Shown in pieces: positions 115-13,859 of a DNA stretch of 20,344 nt. This stretch comes from a virus. The notes beneath the pieces are model-generated. The model had not been told where the DNA came from. It did no database searches and was given only the letters and a program-made list of their open reading frames with translations. The stretch's first letter is position 1. Each line of letters begins with the position of its first letter. Location of the stretch: the IMG/VR virus record IMGVR_UViG_3300021375_000213, positions 1-20,344 of that record; one strand, 5' to 3'. A program made the position numbers and the translations under genes.

Positions 115-801
115 TTATTTCATCTTCTGCACAAATCCATGCATACTGGTATGTATATCATTAGTCCATTCGCTCATTACTTGATACCAACCCCATTCAT
201 TTGGGTATAATTTACATTCTTTTACTAACTGTCTAAGCAATGCACGATTAAAATGTTTACGGTGATGTATTAAAAAATCGCATGGTAAAAATCCGTGCCA
301 GTCATCGTGTGGATTAGTTTTATCAACTTCTTCTATCTGCCCAGATCCAAACTTAGGTCCTCTATTTGGTCTAGTCATAAATCCAACAGGGCCTTGTTCA
401 TATGCTTTACGAAGCCAATTATGTAAGTCAACTTTATTATCTATTTGTGTATTCCAATCTACTCTAATAATTAAATCATGATGAGCTGGTATTTTAGTTA
501 CTATATCAGCGTGTGCAATCATAGGCGCTATTCCAAAATATAATTCGTCAAATAATTCTTTTGACTTTACGTATTGTGCATACTTGGCATGTTTAGAAGG
601 TGGTTGTACTTCCATAGGATGATAATGCCATTTAGGATAATGCATTGTATATAAACGTTCGTGATATTCTTCTGGAACAAGATTTGTTTTATTAGACCAT
701 GTATGATAATAAAAATTACAACCAGGAAGTTTTAGTCGTAATTGATCTACAATAATACTATTTTTATCATTTACTCCACTAACACAAATTGCTATGTTCA
801 T
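115..801 (-). CDS. Glycosyltransferase-like protein (capsule/LPS synthesis type)
   Basis: This 228-residue protein opens with a beta strand of the form MNIAICVSGV, continues with a FYYHTW segment, and has a YDLI-like strand (HDLIIRVDWNTQ, about residues 108-119). That pattern (N-terminal strand, xxHTW, then a hydrophobic strand ending in acidic residues) is what I associate with WavE-type and other capsule or LPS synthesis proteins with a GT-A-like fold. The donor and acceptor sugars cannot be told, and there is no textbook DxD motif; D114 in the VDW segment is the nearest candidate. Its ATG overlaps the stop of the SGNH hydrolase by four bases, implying translational coupling. Assignment to the glycan cassette is firm from context; the enzyme class is an inference. 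Confidence 0.6.
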   Translation of the reverse strand: MNIAICVSGVNDKNSIIVDQLRLKLPGCNFYYHTWSNKTNLVPEEYHERLYTMHYPKWHYHPMEVQPPSKHAKYAQYVKSKELFDELYFGIAPMIAHADIVTKIPAHHDLIIRVDWNTQIDNKVDLHNWLRKAYEQGPVGFMTRPNRGPKFGSGQIEEVDKTNPHDDWHGFLPCDFLIHHRKHFNRALLRQLVKECKLYPNEWGWYQVMSEWTNDIHTSMHGFVQKMK

Positions 802-1505
802 TTAAAAAACCACTCATTAATATTTTTTGCAAATAAGGCATGACTCATTAATCCTGGGTGAGGATTTGGTACGTCTAAAGCGTCATCTATATTAAAATCT
901 TTTTTCCAATTAAATGTTTTTATATTAAGGTTATCTAAATTAAATTTATTAAAGTAATCTTTATTATTTTTTAATTCATGTTCAGGGATTAGATGAAAAC
1001 TTTTTACCCCTTTATTTTTTAGGAATGCATGTATGTAATTTATACGTATCATTTGGTCAAATTTTGCATCAAACTCTTCATAAAAATCTTCATAATATAT
1101 CTTTACTTTTTGTTGTAATTCACTTTTTTCTCCGCCATGCCATATCCAAAACGATTTTGGTAACCTATCTGAGTCGTACATATGCGGAAGCATGTGTAGT
1201 CTTTCTTTTTTATTTTTGAAGAAAGTTGCTCTATTAAAGTTAGCCCATAGTATTACTACAATACTTTGTTTTGTAAATTTTGGATATTCTATAATTGCCT
1301 TTGCAATCATCTTATTACTAGATCCTGATTTAGCTTGATTGCTAACACTGTTAAACTGAACCTGTTGTTGTAATCTTGCAGGCCAAGCCCAATTACTAGG
1401 ACGTACACCCGGTGATTGCATATCTTCTGCAATACTATCAGGCAATCCATGTCCGTAAGTATGACTACATCCAAATGTAATTAGATTGTAATCTTTCCAG
1501 CCCAT
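798..1505 (-). CDS. SGNH/GDSL-type hydrolase or acyltransferase-like protein
   Basis: The 235-residue protein carries the blocks of the SGNH hydrolase fold: block I FGCSHTYGHG (residues 11-20, candidate nucleophile Ser14), a block II-like NQAKSGSSN (56-64, Gly61), a strand with Asn (ILWANFN, about 85-91) and a C-terminal DVPNPHPG (211-218) that could supply the Asp/His pair. Such enzymes hydrolyse or transfer acyl esters, and in polysaccharide clusters they often act in O-acetyl addition or removal. It has no signal peptide, so it probably acts in the infected cell's cytoplasm. A Shine-Dalgarno AAGGA lies about 7 bases before the ATG, inside the sulfotransferase gene, with which it overlaps by 25 bases. 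Substrate unknown. Confidence 0.75.
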   Translation of the reverse strand: MGWKDYNLITFGCSHTYGHGLPDSIAEDMQSPGVRPSNWAWPARLQQQVQFNSVSNQAKSGSSNKMIAKAIIEYPKFTKQSIVVILWANFNRATFFKNKKERLHMLPHMYDSDRLPKSFWIWHGGEKSELQQKVKIYYEDFYEEFDAKFDQMIRINYIHAFLKNKGVKSFHLIPEHELKNNKDYFNKFNLDNLNIKTFNWKKDFNIDDALDVPNPHPGLMSHALFAKNINEWFFK

Positions 1506-2161
1506 ATATTTTTCCTTGCACTTGTATCGAAATCAAAGTCCCAATGATCGATATCTTTCTTATACCATTTAGCAACCTTTTGCATTGTATTACTGTTATA
1601 TAAAGTCCTGTAATCTTCTTTAATACTTGTAACGTTTCTTGATCTTGGCATTTCTGTCATATTGAAGTATTTAAGTACATCTTCTTTAAGATGTTCTACA
1701 CGTAGTATGTCACAACGAACATTACCATCTAAATCTGTTACATGGTCTAACTGAGGATGCCAACCTCTTATAGCTCTATACCAAGTATACTTTTTATCAA
1801 ACCATTTATTACGTTCATGTAAAAAATGTTCAAGTGATCGTGTATCAGCGTAAGACGGATCTATGTTACCTCTTTGCACTGCTTCTTTTGCAAACAAATA
1901 TCTACTTACAACTTTACTCCATGGATTGCGTACAACAGCAAATGCTTGATGTTGATCTGTTATACTGCTACTTACATCTCTCCAACGTGCATGTTCAACT
2001 CCTTTAACATCACGTTCACCATATTGTTTCATAGCGTTGTTAAAGTCTTTAAAATTTGCAATCCATTTGCGTTGTACAGGAAGTATTTTATCTTGAAAAA
2101 CTTCACTGCCACGTATAGTCATGCCTGCATTTTTTGGTATGTGTATAAAAAGTTTTTGCAT
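1481..2161 (-). CDS. Sulfotransferase family protein
   Basis: The 226-residue protein has both PAPS-binding signatures of the sulfotransferase superfamily: a 5'-phosphosulfate loop, FIHIPKNAGMT (residues 5-15), and a 3'-phosphate-binding segment, VVRNPWSKVVSRY (76-88). The IPKNAG form is typical of the Golgi-type carbohydrate sulfotransferases and their bacterial relatives rather than of the cytosolic aryl enzymes. The expected reaction is transfer of sulfate from PAPS to a hydroxyl of a sugar. No PAPS-synthesis genes are visible here, so the donor would come from the host. The start overlaps the preceding stop by one base (TAATG). Together with the methyltransferase and SGNH protein it suggests chemical decoration of a glycan. 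The acceptor is unknown. Confidence 0.85.
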   Translation of the reverse strand: MQKLFIHIPKNAGMTIRGSEVFQDKILPVQRKWIANFKDFNNAMKQYGERDVKGVEHARWRDVSSSITDQHQAFAVVRNPWSKVVSRYLFAKEAVQRGNIDPSYADTRSLEHFLHERNKWFDKKYTWYRAIRGWHPQLDHVTDLDGNVRCDILRVEHLKEDVLKYFNMTEMPRSRNVTSIKEDYRTLYNSNTMQKVAKWYKKDIDHWDFDFDTSARKNIWAGKITI

Positions 2162-2538
2162 TAGTACTTTGTGTAATCCTTTTCTTCAATAATACCTGAC
2201 TTTGTAATTATGTTAATCATTTTTTTAATTTTTGCTCTCTGATCGTTTTTGATATAAACATTTCTAGCAAGTTCTATAAATTTACTACCAAAGTCTTTAT
2301 TAGACTCGCACTCGCGTTTGCTGTTTTCAATATCCCAAAGTTGTTCGTTAATTGACTCTAATTCTTCAACTAAAGCATTTACTTCTGGATCATTACTAAA
2401 TGCTTTATCTTCTAAATATTCTAATTCTTTATTAACGTTAGCAAGTTGGTCTTGGTCTGTTAGTTTGTTTTGCTTGATTCTAAGTATAGTAATCTTGTCA
2501 AATAATTCGCCAACAGATACTTCAATTGATACCATCAT
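2161..2538 (-). CDS. DUF6165-like coiled-coil protein of polysaccharide clusters
   Basis: This 125-residue protein begins with VSIEVSVGELFDKITIL, followed by a heptad-rich region that should be coiled coil (about residues 20-75: LANVNKELEYLEDK, then VEELESINEQLWDIE). The opening is the one I associate with DUF6165, a short family of unknown biochemical function found beside glycosyltransferase and sulfotransferase genes in bacteria. The name comes from memory of the signature, not from a search. It overlaps the upstream heptosyltransferase-like gene by 17 bases and the downstream sulfotransferase by one base. Two ATG codons stand in a row at the start; the first is used here. A structural or adaptor role in a glycan enzyme complex is possible but not shown. 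Confidence 0.7.
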   Translation of the reverse strand: MMVSIEVSVGELFDKITILRIKQNKLTDQDQLANVNKELEYLEDKAFSNDPEVNALVEELESINEQLWDIENSKRECESNKDFGSKFIELARNVYIKNDQRAKIKKMINIITKSGIIEEKDYTKY

Positions 2539-3280
2539 TTATTTTAATCCCGTTATCTTTGGCCCTATGCATGTGATGACTCCAGCGGTCCTTAGGGCTC
2601 AGTGTATATATGTGAATGTTCTCTGGAGCAAAGTAAACTTGTGACATATGTAAGAAGCCACTGTCAACGCCAACATGATACGTTGCCTTTGACATAGCAT
2701 ATGCAATGTGTTTTAAACTGTCTCTTAATAATACATCTTTTGATTCTCCACCTACTACAACTACTTCATAGTCTTTATACTTGTCTAGTATTGCTTGACG
2801 TTGCTTAGGTTTAATCATACGTTTTTTAGAAGTACTATCAAATTGTACTGTAATAAACTTTTTAGGAAGTTTAATATCTTGTGGCTCTGCATCTAATTGC
2901 GGAAAGTGTCTCAAGTATGCTGTAAGATCAATACCTTCTTTTGGCTCAAAGCGTTGCGGATAGTCAGCATATATTTGTGCATGTCCATCGTATGTGCGCC
3001 TTACATAGTTAACAAAGTCTACATTATCTTTTGGTTCAAAATCAAGGTGTGGCATTATTACAACACTTCCTTCAGGGAATAAACTTACTATCTCTGGCCA
3101 ACTTTCGGGCTTGTGTCTGTTCCACTGATACTTTGTAAGGTGTAGTGTTACAGGACTATTTTCCATTAGTCCATAATTGTATGATAGTAATACACTGTGT
3201 ATTCTGTCGCCTAATCCAGGTGCACCATAATGAAAGTTTTTCTTTACAGTACTATATGCTCTCATTACTAAATGTTTCAA
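2522..3280 (-). CDS. GT-B-type glycosyltransferase, heptosyltransferase (GT9)-like
   Basis: The 252-residue protein has a C-terminal half typical of GT-B nucleotide-sugar-binding domains: a strand FITVQFDSTS, a helix rich in basic residues, YEVVVVGGES, then AYAMSKATYHVGVDSGFLHM. The last is the heptosyltransferase-like segment in which a conserved GVDSG...H loop contacts the donor. The N-terminal PGLGDRIHSVL resembles the GxGD opening of GT9 proteins. The predicted start is TTG at 3280: it overlaps the preceding TGA, and an AGGTGA Shine-Dalgarno ends 4 bases before it, whereas the next ATG (3265) is too far from that site. At about 250 residues it is shorter than typical heptosyltransferases (roughly 320-350). 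The sugar transferred is unknown. Confidence 0.65.
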   Translation of the reverse strand: MKHLVMRAYSTVKKNFHYGAPGLGDRIHSVLLSYNYGLMENSPVTLHLTKYQWNRHKPESWPEIVSLFPEGSVVIMPHLDFEPKDNVDFVNYVRRTYDGHAQIYADYPQRFEPKEGIDLTAYLRHFPQLDAEPQDIKLPKKFITVQFDSTSKKRMIKPKQRQAILDKYKDYEVVVVGGESKDVLLRDSLKHIAYAMSKATYHVGVDSGFLHMSQVYFAPENIHIYTLSPKDRWSHHMHRAKDNGIKINDGIN

Positions 3281-4062
3281 TTTATCACCTGCATTAAATC
3301 TTCAACATTCTCACCCTTCTGTGGTAATAGATCTTTTAAGAAAAAATGTATAAAATATGCTTTAGGTATTTGTGCATCGTCAATACCTTTAAACAATCCG
3401 TTCCATCTCCAATCCATATTAAGTGTAGGAATTTTTTCTTTCTTTACCCAATAGTTAAGTAACATTTGATCAGTTGACCATTTGCGATATCCAATGCCGT
3501 CAACAAAGTCTTTGAACTCTGGTCTACGTATAAACTGTTCTGCTGTTTGTCCTTTTAAGTATGGTAAAAACTTTTGACAGTTAATAACCATCATTCCCAT
3601 ATTGTAAAACTCAGCACCTCTATGATCCCATTTCCAATCTACATCTGTAAGATTTTCAAATGCGGCTTTTGAATATTTTCTAATTTTGCTTTTATATTTT
3701 TTAGCACAAGGTAGTTCGCGTTCTGCTACAGCACCAAATGCATATTCATTTGTTAAGTCTTCAAATATGTTTTGTGCAGTTGGTCTAATATAGATATCAC
3801 TATCAATAATAGCAACTTGATCGTATTTGTGTAAATGTGTAAATGCGTTTTCTTTTTCGTATATAGGCATGTAACCAAGACGTTCAACTGCTTCTTTGCT
3901 ACGTCCTGTTACAGCCATGTCTGGTCTAATTTTTAAGATTGGTTCATTTTGTACAATATGTTCAATGCCGTATTTTGCACAGTATTGTCTTACACTTTCA
4001 ATACAATGCAAGTACAGTTTGCTTTGTGCGCCAACTGCTACTTGATAAATCATTCTCTTCAT
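3277..4062 (-). CDS. GT-A-type glycosyltransferase with DSD motif
   Basis: The 261-residue protein looks like a nucleotide-diphospho-sugar transferase of the GT-A (GT8-like) fold. A strand leads into AIIDSDIYI (residues 84-92), a DxD-type metal/nucleotide site. Further on come a YNMGMMVINC segment of the form seen in GT8 proteins, a STDQMLLNYW helix and LNMDWRWNG near the C-terminus. The start ATG overlaps the stop of the GT25-like gene by four bases (ATGA) and is preceded by AAAGGA with 6-base spacing, a good ribosome binding site. It should act in the cytoplasm on an activated sugar; donor and acceptor cannot be read from the sequence. The class is well supported, the specificity is not. 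Confidence 0.75.
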   Translation of the reverse strand: MKRMIYQVAVGAQSKLYLHCIESVRQYCAKYGIEHIVQNEPILKIRPDMAVTGRSKEAVERLGYMPIYEKENAFTHLHKYDQVAIIDSDIYIRPTAQNIFEDLTNEYAFGAVAERELPCAKKYKSKIRKYSKAAFENLTDVDWKWDHRGAEFYNMGMMVINCQKFLPYLKGQTAEQFIRRPEFKDFVDGIGYRKWSTDQMLLNYWVKKEKIPTLNMDWRWNGLFKGIDDAQIPKAYFIHFFLKDLLPQKGENVEDLMQVIN

Positions 4063-4622
4063 GATAAATCCTTTGTAAAACTTACGTCTGTTTTATATGT
4101 AACTTTATTATACTTATCGAAACGCATATCCACAATTCCATCACACAGCATCCAGTCTGCAGGCATTGCTCCGTTTGTATGTACCCAGTCAAGTATTTTC
4201 TTTGCTCCTGTAGGTGTTATACGATAAGCTCTAGCACCTTCATACCAGTTACCTGGAGGTATAGGTTTTGCTTTTTTAAATCCTTCAAACTTGTATATAT
4301 CGCAGTCTTCATATTCACCTATTGGCTTTTTAAAAACAACATCATGTTCAAATATACAAATTGGTGTGTTAGTTGTGTGGCATTTTTGCCACAGTAGGTA
4401 TTGGCTTAAAAAACAACCTTGTGTACCTGGACGAGCAAGCAAGCGTTGTGCTTTTTTGTGTGCGTATACGTTAATATTATAGTCGGCAAGTCCTTGCTTC
4501 ATACCGTTGACACCTTCATATAATTCTAAGTTCCAACCATGATTGGTTCCTGTTTCTAATGCACGACTAGCCATACTAACACTATTAGAATAACTTGGTA
4601 GATAGATTATGTATCCGATCAT
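4059..4622 (-). CDS. GT25-like LPS-type glycosyltransferase
   Basis: This 187-residue protein shows the pattern of the GT25 family (LPS and collagen-type galactosyl/glucosyltransferases). After an N-terminal strand, YIIYLPS, there is GTQGCFLSQYLLWQKC (residues 66-81), matching the family's GxxGCxxSH-like helix with Gln where His is common. EHDVVF (92-97) is the acidic metal site, and GARAYRITPTGAKKIL and PADWMLCDG correspond to the later conserved blocks. Its length is slightly below the usual 200-250. The start overlaps the preceding small gene by four bases (ATGA) and has AAGGA about 4 bases before it. It probably adds a hexose to a lipid- or protein-linked acceptor. Family call moderately secure, substrate unknown. 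Confidence 0.75.
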   Translation of the reverse strand: MIGYIIYLPSYSNSVSMASRALETGTNHGWNLELYEGVNGMKQGLADYNINVYAHKKAQRLLARPGTQGCFLSQYLLWQKCHTTNTPICIFEHDVVFKKPIGEYEDCDIYKFEGFKKAKPIPPGNWYEGARAYRITPTGAKKILDWVHTNGAMPADWMLCDGIVDMRFDKYNKVTYKTDVSFTKDLS

Positions 4623-4801
4623 TTGTCCTTCTCTAACTTGAAAGGCAGGTTCTTGCCTGACAGTTCCTCTGGGCTTACTTTGATGTTTTTCTTCATTTGG
4701 AATCCGTATCCCGCTTTACCTAGTTCGTGTATCTTAGGATCGAATTGGCTGTTCTGCTCGGCCTCTTTCTCCCGTTTGACTTGCCATTTTGATTTCTTCA
4801 T
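4619..4801 (-). CDS. Small basic hypothetical protein (60 aa)
   Basis: I do not recognise this protein. It is 60 residues, highly charged and lysine-rich (opening MKKSKWQVKREKEAEQ), with no hydrophobic segment. It is accepted as a gene because its ATG overlaps the upstream stop by four bases and its stop overlaps the downstream ATG by four bases, exactly the coupling seen through this operon; a GGAAA stretch lies just before the start. Its DNA looks noticeably less AT-rich than the flanking glycosyltransferase genes, hinting at a different origin. It could be a small RNA- or protein-binding factor; nothing in the sequence decides this. Confidence 0.65.
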   Translation of the reverse strand: MKKSKWQVKREKEAEQNSQFDPKIHELGKAGYGFQMKKNIKVSPEELSGKNLPFKLEKDK

Positions 4802-5652
4802 TTTCCTATTTCTACCTGTATTTCTTTCATCACTACTTTATACCAGTGATTTGGTAACCATTTTAATTGTGCTTGTTTAAACTTTAAACCTTCTTTTTTA
4901 TTACCTTTACCTGTACTAAAAACATTATTCTTTTTAATACCCCAACTATTCCAGTTGTATCCAATATGATTATAATCGTTACCCATATTCTTCCATTCAG
5001 CCATTACTTGTCGTAATACTACTTGGTCCACAAACCAATAACATCCGTTTTCAAATGCTGTAATCATTCTTCTAGCAAATAGGTTACGCCATTCAATACC
5101 TTTAGTATCTATGCCTGGACTTAATGCACTAGCAATAAAAATGTGTTGTTCTTTTGGTTTAGGCATAACACCAACAACATTAGTTACTTCTTCAAACTCA
5201 TGTCCGTGGAAGCCGTTACGCAATATACTATCGCAATCAATCTGTAATATTCTTTGATGTGGGTATGTAAATATTTCTGCCATGCGTATAAATCTTACAC
5301 TAGCCAAGTATGTACGTCTAGCAATATAATCTATATCACTAGTTTTAAAAATTTGCATTCCTTCGCCCATCATACTTTTGTTTTTAGGTAAGTCTTTATA
5401 AAATTGTTCGTTAGTATCTTCCCAAGTGTATGTAAACTTGTATCTACCCATTAGGTCTTTTAAGACACCGTGATCAATATTTCCTTCGTTAATTATATGA
5501 CAATGTACATGCACCCAGCCTACTGTTCTATTAATACTTTGCTGGAGTGCAAATCCATGTCGATCAAAGTAATCATAGTCGCAACTAAAATATATTATAT
5601 TTGCTTCTTCTCTAGGACACATATGTCCTCTTAATTCAGGAAGTTTAAACAT
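4798..5652 (-). CDS. GT-A-type glycosyltransferase with DCD motif
   Basis: The 284-residue protein resembles GT8-like transferases. An N-terminal strand, NIIYFSCDYDYF, is followed by a region about the right length for the nucleotide-binding fold, then RILQIDCDSIL (about residues 134-144), whose DCD is a DxD-type metal site. CYWFVDQVVLRQVM matches the later helix in which a DQ pair is common, and WGIKKNNVFSTGKGNKK is a basic loop near the C-terminus that may bind phosphate. A TTG just before the chosen ATG (5652) is also in frame; ATG is preferred because neither has a strong ribosome binding site. The gene overlaps the methyltransferase by eight bases. Donor and acceptor unknown. Confidence 0.7.
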   Translation of the reverse strand: MFKLPELRGHMCPREEANIIYFSCDYDYFDRHGFALQQSINRTVGWVHVHCHIINEGNIDHGVLKDLMGRYKFTYTWEDTNEQFYKDLPKNKSMMGEGMQIFKTSDIDYIARRTYLASVRFIRMAEIFTYPHQRILQIDCDSILRNGFHGHEFEEVTNVVGVMPKPKEQHIFIASALSPGIDTKGIEWRNLFARRMITAFENGCYWFVDQVVLRQVMAEWKNMGNDYNHIGYNWNSWGIKKNNVFSTGKGNKKEGLKFKQAQLKWLPNHWYKVVMKEIQVEIGK

Positions 5653-6322
5653 CAATTGCTATCCCTGGCCTATGTCCGATAATGGCATTCTTTTCTCCTC
5701 TACCAATTTTTCTAATCATTCTATATCCAAGTGGTGCAAGTATGTGTCTAATTGTGTCAGCGTTATGTCCGTAACGTATTGGATGATCTTTACATTCGTA
5801 AAGTATAATTGGTAAGCAACGTTTAATAGTTTCGAGCCCACCTTGTGCAACAAAAGGTTCATACCCTTCTGCATCAATTTTAATAAAATCAACATCTTGT
5901 AAATTATAAAAATCTAAAGGCATAACTTGTATGTCACCGCCGTCAACATCTGGAGCAACATGCGTACTAAAACTTTTATTTGTTGTTTTAATAGAAACAT
6001 TGTGTTTACGTTGTCCAAGTCCTACAGGATATGTTGTTACATTACCTACTGCTCGAGATTCTAAATTATAATTCATGCATTCATAAATCTTTGGATTAAT
6101 TTCGTATGCGTGTACATGTTCAAAACTCTTCGCCATTTGAAATGCTGTAATGCCTACATGTGCTCCAACATCAACTGCTGTACGCCATTTAGCACAGTAG
6201 CTCATTGCTGTCATTAATTCTATGTTTTGATAATTGTTAATATCGCCATTACCTTGCTTTTTTGCACTCTTTAAACAAATATCGTTTTTGAGTGAGCGCC
6301 AGCCATCTATCTCAGTATACAT
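5645..6322 (-). CDS. FkbM-family SAM-dependent methyltransferase
   Basis: The 225-residue protein carries the FkbM-type class I methyltransferase motifs. AVDVGAHVG (residues 49-57) is the SAM-binding glycine loop, AYEINP (72-77) supplies the acidic residue for the ribose, and VDFIKIDAEGYE (144-155) followed by GGLETIKRCLPIILYEC is the diagnostic FkbM block. The N-terminus (ICLKSAKKQG) is short and replaces the longer leader of some homologues. Members O-methylate sugars and polyketide hydroxyls, so here it probably methylates a sugar of the glycan made by neighbouring enzymes. The ATG overlaps the upstream stop by one base (TAATG), with GGAG 5 bases before it. Family call is strong; substrate is inferred from context. 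Confidence 0.9.
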   Translation of the reverse strand: MYTEIDGWRSLKNDICLKSAKKQGNGDINNYQNIELMTAMSYCAKWRTAVDVGAHVGITAFQMAKSFEHVHAYEINPKIYECMNYNLESRAVGNVTTYPVGLGQRKHNVSIKTTNKSFSTHVAPDVDGGDIQVMPLDFYNLQDVDFIKIDAEGYEPFVAQGGLETIKRCLPIILYECKDHPIRYGHNADTIRHILAPLGYRMIRKIGRGEKNAIIGHRPGIAIDV

Positions 6323-7098
6323 TATTGCTCCACTTGATACTTAAATGTTATATCCCAAGCAAGTCCATTTGCAAAGTCTTCACGTCGGAATTGGCTATGT
6401 GCAATATGTTCTAGCATCTCTGTTCTATCAAATCCAAATTTTCCTTGCCAATGTTGTACTGCACTTTGGCCTAGTACTTCAATAGGTTTTCCTAAACACA
6501 ATGCTTCAACTACTGCCATACTGTGATATGTAATTACTTTTTTTGCACTTAACATCATAGGTAAAATTTCTTGAAAGCGTTGTCTACGCTTGCCTTCTTT
6601 TTCTCTTATAATTAATTTCTCTGGAAGACTATCATAATGGCGAACTGTATCTGTACGCCACGTATTATAATCTTGTCCTAAGTATTTAAATATATTACTA
6701 TTGTTAGGCATCACTAAAAGGTTGTAATCGCCTTCTTTGTTCCATTCTTGCCATAAGTTGTCGTCTATTTCTAAATGTTCAATCCTGCTTTTATCTACAG
6801 GAGTACATACTTTAGTATTTTGTAATGAGTTATAACTAATACGATAGTACTCTGGAGTTTTATGTCTGTGATTGCCTATGTATCCGTTATCTAAATGGAA
6901 AAAGTTTATTCGTTTATCTCTTGATATTGCATCAAATACCCAATCGTCAAAAGGGTGACTAAATGCTAGATATCTATCTAATTCAATTTCTTCTGGGCGT
7001 TCAATGGTAATTGTATCGTAGTTTTTATATAAGTCTACAAAAAGTTGACCACGTAATTCTTTACTGCGTTTAGGTACTTGAAATTTATACGCTGGCAT
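6322..7098 (-). CDS. GT-B-like polysaccharide biosynthesis protein
   Basis: The roughly 258-residue protein has no single textbook motif, but its C-terminal third reads like the donor domain of GT-B glycosyltransferases or capsule biosynthesis proteins. KVITYHSMAVVEALCLGKPIEV presents the Ser/His plus EAL.LGKP pattern that grips the nucleotide sugar. Upstream are a LLVMPNNSN strand-loop and a LIIREKEGKRRQR basic segment. An in-frame TTG at 7113 would add five residues; ATG 7098 is preferred, with GGAAG immediately before it and no good site for TTG. The gene overlaps the end of uvsY by 14 bases, so the glycan cassette is joined directly to the recombination operon. Its sugar is unknown. Confidence 0.6.
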   Translation of the reverse strand: MPAYKFQVPKRSKELRGQLFVDLYKNYDTITIERPEEIELDRYLAFSHPFDDWVFDAISRDKRINFFHLDNGYIGNHRHKTPEYYRISYNSLQNTKVCTPVDKSRIEHLEIDDNLWQEWNKEGDYNLLVMPNNSNIFKYLGQDYNTWRTDTVRHYDSLPEKLIIREKEGKRRQRFQEILPMMLSAKKVITYHSMAVVEALCLGKPIEVLGQSAVQHWQGKFGFDRTEMLEHIAHSQFRREDFANGLAWDITFKYQVEQ

Positions 7099-7540
7099 CT
7101 TCCATACCCGCAACTCTCAGTTTGACAACGTTTGTTATCTGCCACTGTTTCTGATCAAGACCTTTTAATAAGCCTAGCCATTTGTTACGAAGTAATGCAA
7201 ACTCATTAATAATCTTTTCATAGTCGACTACGTCTGCTTCGCCGTCAACATATTTCTCAACATCTCTGCTAGACAAAGCACGTTGATAATTTTCAAGATA
7301 TTTTTTAAAATATGAACTACGCAGTCTACGTAGTTCAATATTTAGATAATTTAGTATAGCTTCAATCTCTTGTAACTGATTAAAACGGTGTTCAACGATG
7401 CCGGGCATCTCTGCCGCGGCACGTTCAACGTTGCCTTTTAGTTTTACTTCACTTCGGGCATCAATAAGTTCATCTTCAAAAAACTTAATTGCTGTGGGGA
7501 TTTTATTGATATCTCTAGCTACTTCAGAGTAATATCCCAT
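7085..7540 (-). CDS. uvsY: UvsY-like recombination mediator protein
   Basis: The 151-residue protein matches the layout of T4 UvsY (137 residues): a helical body followed by a C-terminal LLKGLDQKQWQITNVVKLRVAG helix that parallels the T4 ALDAIKSRGFAIKHIQDMR segment. A YQRALSSRDVEKYVDG stretch corresponds to the ALSADKDVLKV part of T4. UvsY loads the UvsX recombinase onto gp32-covered single-stranded DNA. Two genes upstream lies uvsX, and gp32 precedes that, so all three partners are together. The ATG directly follows the stop of the small acidic protein (TAAATG), with GGAAG inside that gene as ribosome binding site. The N-terminal half (MGYYSEVARDINKIPTAIKF) differs from T4, as expected for a distant relative. 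Confidence 0.88.
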   Translation of the reverse strand: MGYYSEVARDINKIPTAIKFFEDELIDARSEVKLKGNVERAAAEMPGIVEHRFNQLQEIEAILNYLNIELRRLRSSYFKKYLENYQRALSSRDVEKYVDGEADVVDYEKIINEFALLRNKWLGLLKGLDQKQWQITNVVKLRVAGMEDASV

Positions 7541-8882: not shown

Positions 8883-8915
8883 AAAAGCTAATGTAGGGGA
8901 AATTAATCCCCTACA
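8883..8915 (-). terminator. Terminator-like hairpin between gp32 and uvsX
   Basis: The sequence TGTAGGGGA (8892-8900), a six-base loop AATTAA, and TCCCCTACA (8907-8915) form a perfect 9-bp stem. On the minus strand it lies 14 bases after the gp32 stop codon and is followed by TTAGCTTTT, a short U-rich run. This looks like a weak intrinsic terminator or a 3'-end stabilising hairpin. It would allow gp32 mRNA to be made in excess over uvsX, as high gp32 levels require. The U-run is imperfect, so part of the transcription may read through into uvsX. Confidence 0.75.
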
Positions 8916-8929
8916 AACGATTAATTATT

Positions 8930-9922
8930 TTATGATTGACGTGATCTAATCATTGATAAAATGTCTTCAGCTTTACCTGACGGTGCAGGTGTCTCTGTTG
9001 CCGGAGCCGCAGGTGCCGCTTCTGCTACTGGAGCAGGTGCCGCTTCTGGTGCCGGTGTTGGAGTTGCTGGTGCCGCTGGTGGTGCCGCTGGAGCAGGAGT
9101 ACCCGCTCTATTCTGTGGATCACCTGTTCTTGCCGCCATTCCCGCTGGACGGAAATATTGACCAAAACGATCCATATCATATGCTTCACCATCTACTGAT
9201 GCTTCAAACATTTCTTTCATGACTTTTACCTCAACTTCTGAAGGTTGTTTCGGAAGGAAGTCACTCATGTTAAACAAGCCATTAGTTTCAATAGCTTTCA
9301 TTTCAACATCTGTCAATGGACGCTCTCTACGTGCCCAATTAGAAGTTGAATAGTCAGCATATCCACCTTTACTTGTTTTATTAAGACGGAAGTCTACACC
9401 AGCAGTATAATCTGTTGGTAATTCTTCCATGTCCGGATCCATGAGAGCCGCTTTAATAATTTGGAAAATCTGTGGACCAATAATAAACCTTCGAACTGGA
9501 TTCTCAGGAGTAGTATCTTCATTCAACGCATTTTCAGTTACGAAGCCTTGGAATACGTATGAACGTTTCTTCCAATATTTTCTACCCATGTCTTCTAGAC
9601 TTGGATCTTTAAACCATGCACGTACTTCATTTAGAATGTCGCACGTTTGTCCGTACATTTCCATACACGGAACTTGTACTTGTACAGGACGTGAGTCTGT
9701 TTCACCTTTAATTCCTGCAAACGGAAGTTTGATCATCAAACGTTCTTTCCAAAAGAAAGTGTTTGCTTCATCTCCGTCTGGAAGGAATCTTAGAGTTGAA
9801 CTCTGTCCTTCTTGCATGTTCCAAAATGGGAAAATTGCGTTGTCACCGCCTGACGAACGATTGCCGCCAGTGTTTGCTTCTTGTTCTTTCAGTTTAGCTC
9901 TGATTTCTGCTAGTGTTGCCAT
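8930..9922 (-). CDS. 32: gp32-type single-stranded DNA-binding protein
   Basis: The 330-residue protein is the phage ssDNA-binding protein that coats single strands at the fork and in recombination. It has a short basic N-terminus (MATLAEIRAKLKEQE), the part which in T4 mediates cooperativity. The core starts at AIFPFWNM (29-36) and holds a TLRFLPDGD strand and the PCMEMYGQTC segment (85-94). Unlike T4, with its His-Cys-Cys-Cys zinc site, only two Cys (86 and 94) and no His are seen, so the zinc site appears lost or changed. Residues about 274-315 are a Pro/Ala-rich linker, followed by a short KAEDILSMIRSRQS end instead of a long acidic tail. It has a strong AGGAGG ribosome binding site 8 bases before the ATG and its own promoter. 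Confidence 0.95.
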   Translation of the reverse strand: MATLAEIRAKLKEQEANTGGNRSSGGDNAIFPFWNMQEGQSSTLRFLPDGDEANTFFWKERLMIKLPFAGIKGETDSRPVQVQVPCMEMYGQTCDILNEVRAWFKDPSLEDMGRKYWKKRSYVFQGFVTENALNEDTTPENPVRRFIIGPQIFQIIKAALMDPDMEELPTDYTAGVDFRLNKTSKGGYADYSTSNWARRERPLTDVEMKAIETNGLFNMSDFLPKQPSEVEVKVMKEMFEASVDGEAYDMDRFGQYFRPAGMAARTGDPQNRAGTPAPAAPPAAPATPTPAPEAAPAPVAEAAPAAPATETPAPSGKAEDILSMIRSRQS

Positions 9923-9924
9923 AA

Positions 9925-9954
9925 TATAAGCCTCCTATGTGTTTTTGCCTTATA
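9925..9954 (-). promoter_or_regulatory. Possible hairpin enclosing the gp32 ribosome binding site
   Basis: In the gp32 leader the six bases TATAAG (minus strand, 9954-9949) can pair with CTTATA (9930-9925). An extra C-G pair is possible across a bulged G. The loop between them holds the AGGAGG Shine-Dalgarno sequence, and the stem ends two bases before the ATG. T4 gp32 represses its own translation by binding its mRNA leader, so a structured leader would fit such control. The pairing is short and AU-rich and could be weak or accidental; this is a suggestion, not a demonstrated operator. Confidence 0.4.
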
Positions 9955-9991
9955 GCTGTTTTGTATTGCCTAAATGTGCATTACTTTATAT

Positions 9992-10020
9992 ATAATACAC
10001 TCTTGTACTTATAAAGTCAA
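9992..10020 (-). promoter_or_regulatory. Sigma70-like promoter for gp32
   Basis: On the minus strand a -35 box TTGACT (10020-10015) is followed by a 17-base spacer and a -10 box TATTAT (9997-9992). This is close to consensus with ideal spacing. Transcription would begin near 9985, giving a leader of about 60 bases before the gp32 ATG. An A-tract lies just upstream of the -35 box and may act like an UP element. The lack of the late octamer here suggests that gp32 is read by host-type RNA polymerase, early or throughout infection, unlike the structural genes upstream. Confidence 0.75.
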
Positions 10021-10038
10021 CCTTTTTTTTGACTTTAT
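10011..10038. repeat. 10-bp perfect inverted repeat overlapping the gp32 -35 box
   Basis: ATAAAGTCAA (10011-10020) and TTGACTTTAT (10029-10038) are exact reverse complements, separated by CCTTTTTT. One arm contains the -35 box of the gp32 promoter. The repeat begins 12 bases after the stop of the upstream 738-aa gene in the direction of transcription. It may be a repressor or activator operator, or an RNA hairpin at the 3' end of the late transcript. It lacks a following U-tract on the minus strand, so it is not a normal intrinsic terminator. Confidence 0.7.
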
Positions 10039-10050
10039 TCTGAAATTTGG

Positions 10051-12267
10051 TTATCTTAGTCCTGCTAGGGATTGGATACGTGCCATTTCAGCATCTTTCA
10101 AGCGTAATAAATCTGCCATTACTGCTTGAGCTTCATCAACCATCTCATCACCGTACTGTTTTTGTACTGCTGTTAAGACTGCTGTTTCACCTTTAGGGAA
10201 AGCATTACTAGTATAATCGTACATACCTTTAATGAATTCATCTAATGGAATTTCGTTCTTTTGCTTCAATTCGTCACCGTTTCCTTTTGGACTAATGTCG
10301 ATTGTTGTAGCATCTTTATCATCTTCTTTTGCTCTTTCGTCGTCTCCGAACATCATTTTATATACTTTATATCCACCCAATAATAGTGCAACTACTACTG
10401 CCGCTGGTATAGCATATTGTTTTGCAATACCTGCAACTTTGTTTAGATCTGGAATATTATCTAGTGCGCCTGCCGCCATTGATTTAAGTTCATCTGCTGT
10501 GTTGGCTACTTTGTCGCCAACTGATTTAATAGTACTTTGAGCTGTGTCAATAGCATCGTTAGCTTTACCAACAAGTTCTGCTCCACCTTTTACTGTGTTA
10601 ACTGCTCCTTTTGCTACGTCTACTGTTGCACTTGGATTAGCCGCCGCTGTTGCACCAACAGTTGCTTTGACTGGATTCTTTGCTGACCAACTTAAAATCT
10701 TGCCTGAACCCTTCATTACATTTGGTAAAACTTTAGGGCCAAGCATTCTTAGTGCCGCACCTGCCGCTGGTACTAGTAATCCTAGTAACGGTAATGCTTC
10801 TTGTAATTGTTGATCTTCTGCTGTTAACTCATCTGTACGTTTGCCTAAAATCTTTTCGGCGTTTAGTTTGCTCATTTTAGTTTTATATTTTTTCCCTGCA
10901 AACATAAATTCTTTTTCGCCTTTTGATGCCGCATCAGCCGCACACTGAGAAAACTTTTCCCACATAGCTTGTTGCTCTTCTGCAGTCATCATTTGCTTTT
11001 CTTTTGGTCCTTGTTCATGTTTTGACTGTGCAATAATAGCATCCATCTTTTCAGCATATGCTGTTTGAGGATCGATAACTTCATTAGGTGATCCCATATC
11101 GTCATTTGTATCTTGAAATCCTTTTTGTGCTAGAAAGTTTTGAATTACTTTTGCTGGATTACCATCAGCCTTTACCATTTCTTTTCCAAATGTTGCTTTG
11201 TCCATTTTTAGAACTTGGGCTAGATAATCTGCTCCATGAGTTTTAAACATACCAAGATACTTGTTCCCCACAGTACCTAATTGTATTGCATCATCTTCGG
11301 CTAGTTTTTCTAAATCTACTTCTTCTACTTTGTTTGCTTCTTTTACTAAGTTGTATACATATGGAAATACACCTTTTAGTTCTTCGTTAAACTGTCTAAT
11401 AGTAAGTTCGTCAATCCAAGTATTTGAAACATCTTCTGGAACTTCTTCAAGCACGGTAGTTTCGAAGTTTGCAAATGTTTCTGTATAATATGCTTTGCGT
11501 TGTAGAGACTCAACTGTCTTTTTAACAGTAGCAAGTCTTTCGTTTACAACGTCCATGTATCCTGCTAAACCTTCAGCCATTACACTTGAGCGATTCATGT
11601 ATGTCTTAAATTTACGCAGTTTGTTTAATTCTTCTGATAGCCCAACAATATGCTTACCAAAGTCGTCGTATGCATTTCCACCTTCACTTACGTGCATAGC
11701 CATTGCTCTTGCACCGTTCATGTGTCGTAGTGGATATTTAAATCTTTCGCCGTTTGCACTTTCAATATAAATGCTGTGTACATTTTGTGTGCGTCCTGCG
11801 GCATTTTCGTGGTTTACTGGGCCAGCATGTTTTACAACTAATCTTGCTGTTCCGATATCTTGGTAACTAGTTCTACTAGTTCCATACATCTTTGATTCGC
11901 TCATTTGTTTCTCCGTGCTTAGATATTCGTAATCTCTTTTATCTAAATTTGATTTTGTTATGTCTCGTGTATCAAAATTTAACATTCTCTTTTTTGCAAA
12001 TACTCTTAATTCTTTTAAAAGATCAAACCATTTGCTTTTAAGTACATGTTCATCTTCTGAAAATAGGTCCTGACCATACATTACTGTGAGTGCATTTTCG
12101 TCAATACTTACACTAACTTTCTTACCGCTTGCAAAGTCAAATTCAAAAAATCTAGCTTCTTTTGGTTTGTTAGTTATTTCAGCAGATTCGTTTCCTACTG
12201 TAATGCTAGGAAAGCGTCCACGTATCTTATTAAATAATTCGTCTGCAATAGTCTCAAGGTTTTTCAT
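10051..12267 (-). CDS. Large virion-associated protein with membrane segment, unknown
   Basis: I do not recognise a named T4 counterpart for this 738-residue protein. The N-terminal 250 residues look globular, with a conserved-looking stretch around TARLVVKHAG and ERFKYPLRHMNGA. The middle is helical and charged, and a hydrophobic segment, LPLLGLLVPAAGAAL, starts near residue 492. A helical Ala-rich repeat-like region follows, then a clear transmembrane stretch, YAIPAAVVVALLLGGYKVY (about 618-636), and a charged C-terminus. This plan suits an internal or ejected virion protein that meets the host membrane. An in-frame TTG at 12282 would add five residues but lies in the terL stop region and upstream of the promoter-like motif, so ATG 12267 is used. 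It follows terL and precedes the gp32 promoter. Confidence 0.8.
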   Translation of the reverse strand: MKNLETIADELFNKIRGRFPSITVGNESAEITNKPKEARFFEFDFASGKKVSVSIDENALTVMYGQDLFSEDEHVLKSKWFDLLKELRVFAKKRMLNFDTRDITKSNLDKRDYEYLSTEKQMSESKMYGTSRTSYQDIGTARLVVKHAGPVNHENAAGRTQNVHSIYIESANGERFKYPLRHMNGARAMAMHVSEGGNAYDDFGKHIVGLSEELNKLRKFKTYMNRSSVMAEGLAGYMDVVNERLATVKKTVESLQRKAYYTETFANFETTVLEEVPEDVSNTWIDELTIRQFNEELKGVFPYVYNLVKEANKVEEVDLEKLAEDDAIQLGTVGNKYLGMFKTHGADYLAQVLKMDKATFGKEMVKADGNPAKVIQNFLAQKGFQDTNDDMGSPNEVIDPQTAYAEKMDAIIAQSKHEQGPKEKQMMTAEEQQAMWEKFSQCAADAASKGEKEFMFAGKKYKTKMSKLNAEKILGKRTDELTAEDQQLQEALPLLGLLVPAAGAALRMLGPKVLPNVMKGSGKILSWSAKNPVKATVGATAAANPSATVDVAKGAVNTVKGGAELVGKANDAIDTAQSTIKSVGDKVANTADELKSMAAGALDNIPDLNKVAGIAKQYAIPAAVVVALLLGGYKVYKMMFGDDERAKEDDKDATTIDISPKGNGDELKQKNEIPLDEFIKGMYDYTSNAFPKGETAVLTAVQKQYGDEMVDEAQAVMADLLRLKDAEMARIQSLAGLR

Positions 12268-12272
12268 ATTAA

Positions 12273-12280
12273 TATTTATC
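12273..12280 (-). promoter_or_regulatory. Late-promoter motif GATAAATA before the 738-aa gene
   Basis: The octamer GATAAATA (minus strand) overlaps the terL stop codon TGA and ends five bases before the ATG of the 738-aa gene. It is close to the T4 late promoter core TATAAATA. With T4 geometry, transcription would start at or within the ATG, giving a nearly leaderless message; no Shine-Dalgarno sequence is seen in the short gap. Confidence 0.6.
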
Positions 12281-13859
12281 AATAACCGCTAACAAATATA
12301 GGCATCGGCGGTTCGTATGATTCTTCTCCTTCTGCTTGTGTAAACGTATTATATATACGTGGATCCCAGTCTTTCATTACAGCCATCATTCTTAATGCAA
12401 GTAATGTAGCACTAACCAAGTCATCATTAGCTCCCGGTTTTGCTCTAAAACTAGTACCTGTAGCAACATAATTCTTTAGTTCAGTAATTAATGGGCCACT
12501 GTTAATAGTTATCTTATTATTTTCAACCATAGTCTTTAGTCGACTACATGCTGTAATCTTAGTACCATGTGTAGTATTAAATCCTTTACGAAACTTACGT
12601 ACATGTCCTTTACGCATTGGTTCACTTACAAATAGTCCGGGTATATTTTCTTCGCCAAAGTCATTTATAACAATCAATGCCGCTTCTCCGATACTATTGT
12701 TTTCTACACTCCAATAAATGTTAGATCCAGTTCCTTTACAACTATCTTGTATGTGTGTACAAATATCTCTTAATATTCTAATCTGTGCTGGTATAGGTGT
12801 TTCGTTGTGTCGCCATTCTGCTACTTGTGTATAACTTGGAAGTTCATATACTTGTATTGCGGCATAATCGCCTCCAGTACCCATTGCTGGATCGAGTGCT
12901 ACTGCATAATTTTGATCTCCTGTTGGTTTTCCGTACCAACGTGTTTGCCCCATGTTCATTAATGGATCTTTTGCTTCCATAGTTGATAAATGAATACTAT
13001 TAATAAGTGTTTCATCGTATACTAAGAATTCGCAACCGTACTCTCGTCTAAATTTTTCTTCGCCAATACGTCCAATTTCTTCAATCTTCCATTGTTCGTC
13101 TCTGTCAGGATGTTCGTCCCAACCACATGTAAATCCGTGAAAACCGTTTATGCCGACTTCTTGTTCGTTACCATGTGCATCGTATTTCTCTTGTGATTGT
13201 TTCCAAATAACAGCAAACGTATCTTCGTCTGAGTTAGGTGTACTTGTAATAATAGCACGACCACCTGTTGCTAGTGTAGGTGATATTGATGTCCAAAATT
13301 CTTCTGCAATATTAGGATTAACAAATGCAAACTCGTCACAGTATAATAATGATATACTCATACCACGTCCTGTGTTGCCTGTTGTAGTAGCACTAACAAT
13401 TCTACTTCCGTTTTCAAACTCCATTGAGCCTTTGTTATAGTTTGTAACACCCGCTCTAATATGGTCTGGACATGATTCATACACATAACGTATACGTTGC
13501 ATAATCTCTTGTGCGCCTGTATACTTGTGTGCGGCAATTAGTACAGTTTGATCTGGATGAAACATTGCATACCATGCTAGATATATTGCGGCAGTAGTAG
13601 TTTTACCAGTCTGCCTTGGTAGCATGTTTACATTAAATCTATGATTGTGATAACTTTCAAGAAGTCGTGATTGGTATGTGAAAGGATCAAACAATAATTT
13701 GCCTTTTACAGGATGTTGGATGTATGCAAACTTACGTGCGAAATGGTCGTAACCAGTTTTAGGATCCATGCATTTAGCAAGGTCCTCAATCTGTGTATCA
13801 GTATATGTTTCTGTTTTATTGGCTTTCTTAATTAAGACGCCGTCTAAAGAAGTACTCAT
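12279..13859 (-). CDS. 17: Large terminase subunit (gp17-type packaging ATPase/nuclease)
   Basis: The 526-residue protein is the DNA-packaging motor and headful nuclease. ATPase domain: Walker A PRQTGKTT (81-88), Walker B LLYCDEFAF (171-179, Asp175 and catalytic Glu176), coupling motif STPN (206-209). Nuclease domain: ALDPAMGTGGDY (321-332, Asp323), VENNSIG (385-391, Glu386) and GANDDLV (476-482, Asp479/480), the three acidic sites of the RNase H-like fold. T4 gp17 is 610 residues, so this is somewhat shorter. A longer frame opens at ATG 13889, but that codon lies inside a terminator hairpin, so ATG 13859 is chosen. It partners with gp16, which is several genes upstream rather than adjacent as in T4. 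Confidence 0.97.
   Translation of the reverse strand: MSTSLDGVLIKKANKTETYTDTQIEDLAKCMDPKTGYDHFARKFAYIQHPVKGKLLFDPFTYQSRLLESYHNHRFNVNMLPRQTGKTTTAAIYLAWYAMFHPDQTVLIAAHKYTGAQEIMQRIRYVYESCPDHIRAGVTNYNKGSMEFENGSRIVSATTTGNTGRGMSISLLYCDEFAFVNPNIAEEFWTSISPTLATGGRAIITSTPNSDEDTFAVIWKQSQEKYDAHGNEQEVGINGFHGFTCGWDEHPDRDEQWKIEEIGRIGEEKFRREYGCEFLVYDETLINSIHLSTMEAKDPLMNMGQTRWYGKPTGDQNYAVALDPAMGTGGDYAAIQVYELPSYTQVAEWRHNETPIPAQIRILRDICTHIQDSCKGTGSNIYWSVENNSIGEAALIVINDFGEENIPGLFVSEPMRKGHVRKFRKGFNTTHGTKITACSRLKTMVENNKITINSGPLITELKNYVATGTSFRAKPGANDDLVSATLLALRMMAVMKDWDPRIYNTFTQAEGEESYEPPMPIFVSGY

Follow-up and report, generated by a model that had tools for sequence, protein, structure and literature searches.

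The gp32-like gene in this stretch of viral DNA (the window, i.e., all 20,344 nucleotides analysed) appears to be preceded by a dual-promoter leader: a predicted sigma70-type promoter would carry a T4-type late motif in its spacer, two potential stem-loops overlie this promoter, and the perfect inverted repeat at its -35 element (IR1) is most likely a stem-loop of late mRNA reading through from the upstream gene. We hold this account tentatively, as the leading one of several. The direct results are the sequences, the covariation of IR1 and of a second stem (IR2) among relatives, the strand asymmetry of IR2, and, in the window, the bases that IR2 shares with a small leader hairpin (b:b'). The protein gp32 is a textbook case of a protein controlling its own mRNA. 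The present leader combines strong covariation over many uncultured relatives of giant phages with a helix and two promoter motifs that share bases, and it offers a handle on the way in which the folding of a message depends on the promoter used. Coordinates are collected in Table 1.

Table 1. Features of the gp32 upstream region and flanking genes in the window
Feature	Position	Strand	Basis
IR1 5' arm, gp32 strand: ATAAAGTCAA	10029..10038	-	Sequence, repeat search
IR1 3' arm, gp32 strand: TTGACTTTAT, holds -35 hexamer	10011..10020	-	Sequence, repeat search
-35 hexamer TTGACT	10015..10020	-	TTGAC kept in 79/84
-10 hexamer TATTAT	9992..9997	-	Promoter scan
Putative sigma70 start	9985	-	7 nt after -10 hexamer
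Late-promoter-like TATAAGTA within sigma70 spacer	10006..10013	-	One mismatch to TATAAATA
Putative late +1	10000	-	11 nt from T of TAAGTA; inferred from motif statistics and PMC1524935 (available part)
IR2 5' arm GUGUAUUAU, covers -10	9992..10000	-	RNA folds, covariation
IR2 3' arm GUAAUGCAC	9976..9984	-	RNA folds
Leader hairpin 5' arm b GUAAUGC, one A-A mismatch with b', shares IR2 3' arm	9978..9984	-	RNA folds
Leader hairpin 3' arm b' GCAAUAC	9963..9969	-	RNA folds
Shine-Dalgarno AGGAGG	9931..9936	-	Sequence
gp32-like single-strand DNA-binding protein gene	8930..9922	-	phrog_1192, E 9.7e-60
Upstream virion structural gene	10051..12267	-	phrog_13484 (scan from 12282); GATAAATA before ATG 12267

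Relatives and swap test

Since blastn of the window against cultured phages gave no match, relatives were drawn from IMG/VR. Five scans with gp32 queries, each yielding the best 80 of at least 600 candidates and thus a nonexhaustive sample, gave 277 sequences among the matches listed, including the window, 275 of which match gp32 near its first residues. Both a start codon and 170 nt or more of upstream sequence were present in 267 of these, corresponding to 132 distinct upstream regions; removal of 8 cultured phages left 124, and reduction to less than 80% core identity left 84. Unless stated otherwise, all statistics on relatives refer to these 84 nonredundant gp32 upstream regions, window included. 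For promoter placement, a script scored both hexamers and gave extra credit to TAAATA-like motifs in the spacer; at TTGACTAAATA loci the promoter was re-placed by rule. In the swap test, the pairing of a region's own arms was compared with that of arms exchanged between relatives, descent being ignored; nine control region pairs gave z values between -1.8 and 1.8.

Genomic context of the gp32-like gene

Against the Pfam gp32 model, the window protein scores 24.5 bits, under the cut-off of 26.8. Downstream of its gene come uvsX and uvsY, and upstream lie a structural gene and the gene for the large terminase; the annotations of XaC1, RaK2, and 121Q show the order terminase, structural gene, ssDNA-binding protein, and RecA-like gene, the third gene in 121Q being annotated merely as "structural protein." Among cultured phages, gp32 is matched best by Phosso (58.8% identity) and the terminase by PA5oct-like phages (54.6%). 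The position of GATAAATA just before ATG 12267 (12267-12285) makes this codon the likelier start of the upstream structural gene, a 743-aa open reading frame listed from TTG 12282.

Two further observations concern the neighborhood. A nine-pair hairpin, TGTAGGGGATTAATTTCCCCTACA, lies between gp32 and uvsX (8892-8915), and eleven open reading frames on the same strand (115-7113) adjoin the recombination genes. Nine of the latter were scanned, with one family 25 glycosyltransferase and one FkbM methyltransferase domain above the cut-off and one family 8 glycosyltransferase match below it.

A predicted promoter with a late-type motif in its spacer

The hexamers TTGACT (10020-10015) and TATTAT (9997-9992) match the consensus at 10 of 12 positions and lie 17 nt apart, within the 16 to 18 nt that define a sigma70-type promoter here; with the gp32 start codon at 9922, they bear out the good sigma70-like promoter of the initial annotation, as well as its remark that one repeat arm, the inner one, contains the -35 element. 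The spacer holds a degenerate late motif, TATAAGTA. A T4-type late promoter would have a TATAAATA-like box with the start 6 nt past its last A; in the window, where the box has one mismatch, that start is a predicted one. The motif [AC]TAA[AG]TA lies inside the gp32 promoter in 63/84 regions (44 at one position) versus 5/78 control promoters, the former count being possibly inflated because promoter placement rewarded TAAATA-like motifs in the spacer. The predicted late start base is G in 51 of the 63.

Elsewhere in the window, GATAAATA occurs five times on the minus strand, each time before a gene start (one case counted after shifting the start of the 743-aa frame to ATG 12267), and not at all on the plus strand; a related contig of 357 kb holds 23 copies versus 3 of the reversed control. 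This is the commonest form (37/91) among the late-type promoters examined, i.e., [AC]TAAATA sites at most 45 nt from an ATG in the related contigs G001 to G003 and the window. Over these 91 sites, the distance from TAAATA to the ATG peaks at 11, where the ATG coincides with the predicted first transcribed base, and at 24. Of 10 related records, possibly fragments, 2 gave a match to a gp55-like late sigma factor (phrog_234). The late-type motif, the ATG distances, and the gp55-like sigma factor agree with the T4 late promoter rule, which places TATAAATA at -13 to -6 according to the available part of PMC1524935. As a separate observation, the many ATGs at the predicted first base in G001 to G003 and the window would be compatible with leaderless late mRNAs. 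The term leaderless is reportedly linked to a paper on the jumbo phage AR9.

In G001, the first 40,000 positions (L288 and L289, plus strand) contain an array of 21 promoters of the form TTGACA-N16..17-TAnnnT before small genes. A tendency to palindromes, the arms of which vary, is seen in their spacers (CACGG/CCGTG, CAGGA/TCCTG, CACGAGT/ACTCGTG); comparison with exchanged spacers gives z 3.1 (12/5000), and at least 5 bp are reached in 7/21 versus 1.9 expected. Over all 78 control promoters, spacer palindromes give z 3.4.

The inverted repeat IR1

In the window as given, ATAAAGTCAA (10011-10020) and TTGACTTTAT (10029-10038) are perfect 10-bp inverse copies separated by 8 nt, exactly as the initial annotation had described them. 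IR1 lies 12 nt past the stop codon of the upstream gene and has 2 G-C pairs among its 10. By chance count it is unremarkable window-wide, with one perfect repeat of at least 10 bp and 3- to 12-nt spacers found versus a mean of 0.3 in 20 shuffles; within the 128-nt gap before gp32, a repeat of this kind is rare (4/3000 shuffles; 0.0013). If a longer spacer is allowed, the window holds another perfect repeat, of 11 bp with 15 nt between the arms, which is intragenic (2371-2407). With up to 3 mismatches allowed, the 28-nt IR1 pattern occurs nowhere else in the window, and an Rfam search of 9850-10150 gave no family near its gathering score (best, 22.3 bits versus 94.4). As RNA, the 41-nt IR1 stretch has folding energies of -9.2 kcal/mol for the gp32 strand and -8.6 for the opposite one, with z -4.2 in either case.

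Among the relatives, IR1 arms pair better with their own partners than with exchanged ones: the mean longest perfect stem is 5.48 for own and 4.77 for swapped arms (z 6.9; 0/3000; 84 regions). Perfect stems reach 8 bp or more in 15/84 regions (2.5 expected) and 7 bp or more in 22/84 (6.5 expected). The sequence, the length, and the dyad center of the arms vary while complementarity persists, as illustrated in gp32 orientation by ATAAAGTCAA/TTGACTTTAT in the window and L003, ATTTAGTAGAA/TTCTACTAAAT in L007, TAGCAGAA/TTCTGCTA in L009, and ATTTAGCAT/ATGCTAAAT in L042. Paired changes, for which the initial annotation had advised looking, are thus found; selection acts on IR1 pairing in part of the relatives, and neither arm sequence nor position is fixed. 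The same annotation had regarded retention of the -35 box with loss of the second arm as refuting its reading. This is the state of most sampled relatives, as TTGAC is retained in 79/84 and a stem of at least 7 bp in the above 22, but not of the closest kin, where the arms of L001, L003, and L004 match perfectly over 8 to 10 bp and one of the 10 pairs in the stem of L002 is G-U.

A second, differently chosen set comprises the 22 regions in which Watson-Crick pairs fill 7 or more of the 10 positions of the window register, GTCAA-N7..9-TTGAC, a count for which no chance expectation was computed. In these, pair 6 is A-T in 10, T-A in 9, and C-G in 1, pair 7 is A-T in 9, T-A in 9, and C-G in 1, and 13 G-U versus 3 A-C mismatches were counted without a null, all under a selection that itself favors pairs.

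Comparable repeats are not enriched at other promoters. Among 78 further sigma70-like promoters on the contigs of three relatives, at least one of which sits in a gp32 leader itself (L306 of G002), there is no IR1-like excess (z 0.6; 2/78 reach 8 bp); the initial annotation had suggested such a check before other early genes of this phage, of which the window is a 20-kb fragment. The 91 late-type promoters, from three related contigs and the window, likewise show none (z 0.9).

With regard to strand, the duplex energy of IR1 is without clear bias (z -8.8 sense, -7.9 antisense), and the fold z of the zone leans slightly to the gp32 strand (-1.35 versus -1.04; p 0.03). Mismatches amount to 8 G-U versus 2 A-C within stems (null, 43 versus 28) and to 11 versus 17 with flanking pairs. 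Inside IR2, the corresponding counts are 14 versus 4, yet the swapped null is biased as well (154 versus 69). The mismatch counts being equivocal for both stems, they give no firm evidence of strand.

IR2 and the leader hairpin

IR2 is more widely kept than IR1 and is the stronger feature. Its 5' arm covers or adjoins the -10 element, and its 3' arm follows further downstream. In the window it comprises 9 pairs (GUGUAUUAU/GUAAUGCAC), and over the 84 regions own versus swapped arms give z 13.1, with a duplex energy z of -16.1. The median number of pairs is 13, at least 8 being present in 82/84, and 178 of the 1101 pairs are G-U. Its fold z is -2.29 for the sense and -0.79 for the antisense strand (p 1e-11), and an upstream control region displays no difference; since swapped partners differ too (-9.94 versus -6.91), this asymmetry comes partly from the conserved motif. 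At least 5 pairs across the -10 element also occur in 56/78 control promoters, where IR2-like pairing as a whole gives z 1.7 and reaches 8 bp in 4/78; at the 91 late-type promoters, z is -2.1. The putative late start lies at or inside the IR2 helix in 60/63 regions.

The leader hairpin b:b' gives z -4.5 in an anchored test and -0.8 in a crude within-leader pairing test. By duplex energy, IR2 is more stable than b:b' in 84/84 regions, and since b lies entirely within the IR2 3' arm in the window, full formation of one hairpin there precludes that of the other. In folds of the longer RNAs, the IR2 helix was present in 11 of 12; that of L023, begun within its 5' arm, retained b:b'. In the short RNA of L042, b pairs near the ribosome site instead of with b'. 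Sequestration of the Shine-Dalgarno sequence was rejected, as the predicted accessibility of the ribosome site is the same in long and short RNAs (0.746 versus 0.748). IR2 looks like an RNA structure of longer transcripts.

A T4-like pseudoknot was favored at first, since b abuts the IR2 3' arm, and was dropped as a general model because G-U-aware folds place b inside IR2 and some IR2 stems reach 13 to 16 pairs. Trimmed helices could coexist in some relatives, where b abuts the IR2 3' arm. Two cultured phages deserve mention here. Within about 80 nt before gp32 of PA5oct (L083), GTTTTGC/GCAAAAC and AACCC/GGGTT form, by eye, a possible H-type pseudoknot, which follows a TTGACA-17-TATAAT promoter; the gp32 leader of Atu_ph07 (L085) contains, again by eye, GATAAATA, five bases, and then a small hairpin, GTAGATAATTTCTAC, a layout resembling that of the window's relatives. 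In five distant regions (L213, L221, L223, L227, and L225), an IR2 of about 11 to 13 pairs is followed by a T-run and the -35 element reads TTGCnn; judged by this sequence, IR2 may act as a terminator there.

Alternative readings of IR1

The initial annotation had proposed that a protein binding the palindrome offers a switch for gp32 expression. As a dyad operator, IR1 would let a phage or host protein on both arms block or remodel polymerase at the -35 element, and the duplex energy without strand bias is as expected of a DNA site; the 22 regions that keep the window register, again a count without a chance expectation, also point this way. However, a conserved half-site at fixed spacing, the mark of an operator, is not found, 22 of the 84 regions fitting the window register; the arms are diverse (ATAAAGTCAA, ATTTAGTAGAA, TAGCAGAA, ATTTAGCAT, and others), the dyad center shifts relative to the -35 element, and other sigma70-like promoters of three relatives have no excess of such repeats. 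Because the arms change sequence and center while remaining complementary, a fixed protein operator is unlikely. The lack of a clear strand bias would also suit a repeat that shapes the promoter DNA, through non-B structure or spacer geometry, with no dedicated protein or RNA role. The palindromic early-promoter spacers of G001 would then be a cousin of IR1, and the own-spacer signal of its 21 array promoters (z 3.1) speaks for this; but those palindromes lie within the spacer, whereas IR1 flanks the -35 element, and short AT-rich arms extrude poorly. We consider an effect on DNA shape distinctly improbable.

That IR1 in the window is a functionless coincidence of AT-rich promoter sequence would accord with the 0.3 such repeats expected per window and with the 62/84 regions lacking a perfect 7-bp stem. 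The swap tests contradict it, as do the nearest kin, which keep IR1 and of which L002 has a G-U where a break would be; this reading, already disfavored, is rather unlikely. An intrinsic terminator of the upstream late transcript is suggested by the position 12 nt past the stop codon and by the fold of -9.2 kcal/mol, but only 2 of 10 pairs are G-C, a U-tract follows on neither strand, IR1 is absent from the terminator scan output, and in 13/84 regions a hairpin resembling a terminator lies at another place upstream of the promoter. Lacking a U-tract, IR1 is not an intrinsic terminator, and we give this role hardly any credence. Of the RNA hairpin that the initial annotation had offered as its second option, the placement in the upstream late mRNA fits the data better than an operator does, and a terminating function does not hold.

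The upstream hairpins themselves, each followed by a T-rich stretch in those 13 regions, span by eye the last codons and the stop of the upstream gene in L032, L042, and L049. A read-through RNA would predict IR1 to be rarer beside such terminators, which is not observed (4/13 with, 18/71 without; p 0.74); without this anticorrelation, the idea that IR1 substitutes for an upstream terminator was rejected.

A model for the gp32 leader

In the dual-promoter leader that we favor, IR1 would be a stem-loop in mRNA reading through from the upstream late structural gene, marking the junction of that message and the gp32 leader, with its 3' arm sharing the -35 bases. It might serve as a 3'-end stabilizer or be located next to an RNA cleavage site of the kind found at T4 gene 32. 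Together, the sigma70 and late boxes and the two stems would make up a single module. IR2 would form solely in RNA begun at the late site or further upstream, whereas sigma70 RNA would start past the IR2 5' arm and instead fold the small hairpin at its own 5' end. That IR2 spans two overlapping promoter motifs suggests that the start point of a message decides how its front end folds. Both start sites, the existence of the read-through RNA, and every functional role are inferred from the features described above. A further step, possible though rather doubtful, would be a promoter-embedded RNA switch in this group of uncultured phages: the choice between the sigma70 start and the late start 15 nt upstream would pick between exclusive 5' stem-loops, located at or close to the 5' ends of their respective RNAs, and would thereby govern how stable the gp32 mRNA is or how gp32 binds its own message in the early and late phases of infection, with the border to the upstream late mRNA at IR1.

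Comparison with known systems

A search of the open-licence literature for an ssb leader motif in marine phages found nothing. In the parts of the literature available to us, the gp32 RNA signal is described in T4, T2, and RB69, and a wider study in more diverse T4-related phages is called for (PMC3014915). T4 gene 32 has middle and late promoters (PMC2988022, in part) and an RNase E cleavage 71 nt upstream (PMC3014915, in part). As far as the available portions of these papers and of PMC535899 go, the window resembles T4 gene 32 in the kind of gene and, by prediction, in a middle-type plus a late promoter, structured RNA about 40 to 80 nt before the AUG, and transcripts that also arise from upstream genes. 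In contrast to T4 gene 32, the late motif of the window lies inside the sigma70 spacer, the RNA stem includes the -10 element, the leader helices share bases without a full T4-like pseudoknot, and gp32 binding is putative.

With regard to late promoters of T4 type (TATAAATA; CTAAATA in Aeh1), the likeness of the putative late promoters extends to the motif, the predicted start distance, and the gp55-like sigma factor in 2 of 10 related records; the difference is that GATAAATA is the commonest form (37/91) and that many starts are leaderless by position. Several T4 genes have hairpins that form on the transcripts of one promoter alone, according to the available text of PMC2988022. Like I-TevI and segB of T4 and mobE of Aeh1 in that text, the window would form a hairpin on the transcripts of one promoter, with the other start inside the hairpin. 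The I-TevI, segB, and mobE hairpins, as described there, hide the ribosome site, whereas in the window the predicted accessibility is the same in both RNAs; moreover, the assignment seems reversed, as here the shorter sigma70 RNA would be the one without the hairpin and the late RNA would keep IR2.
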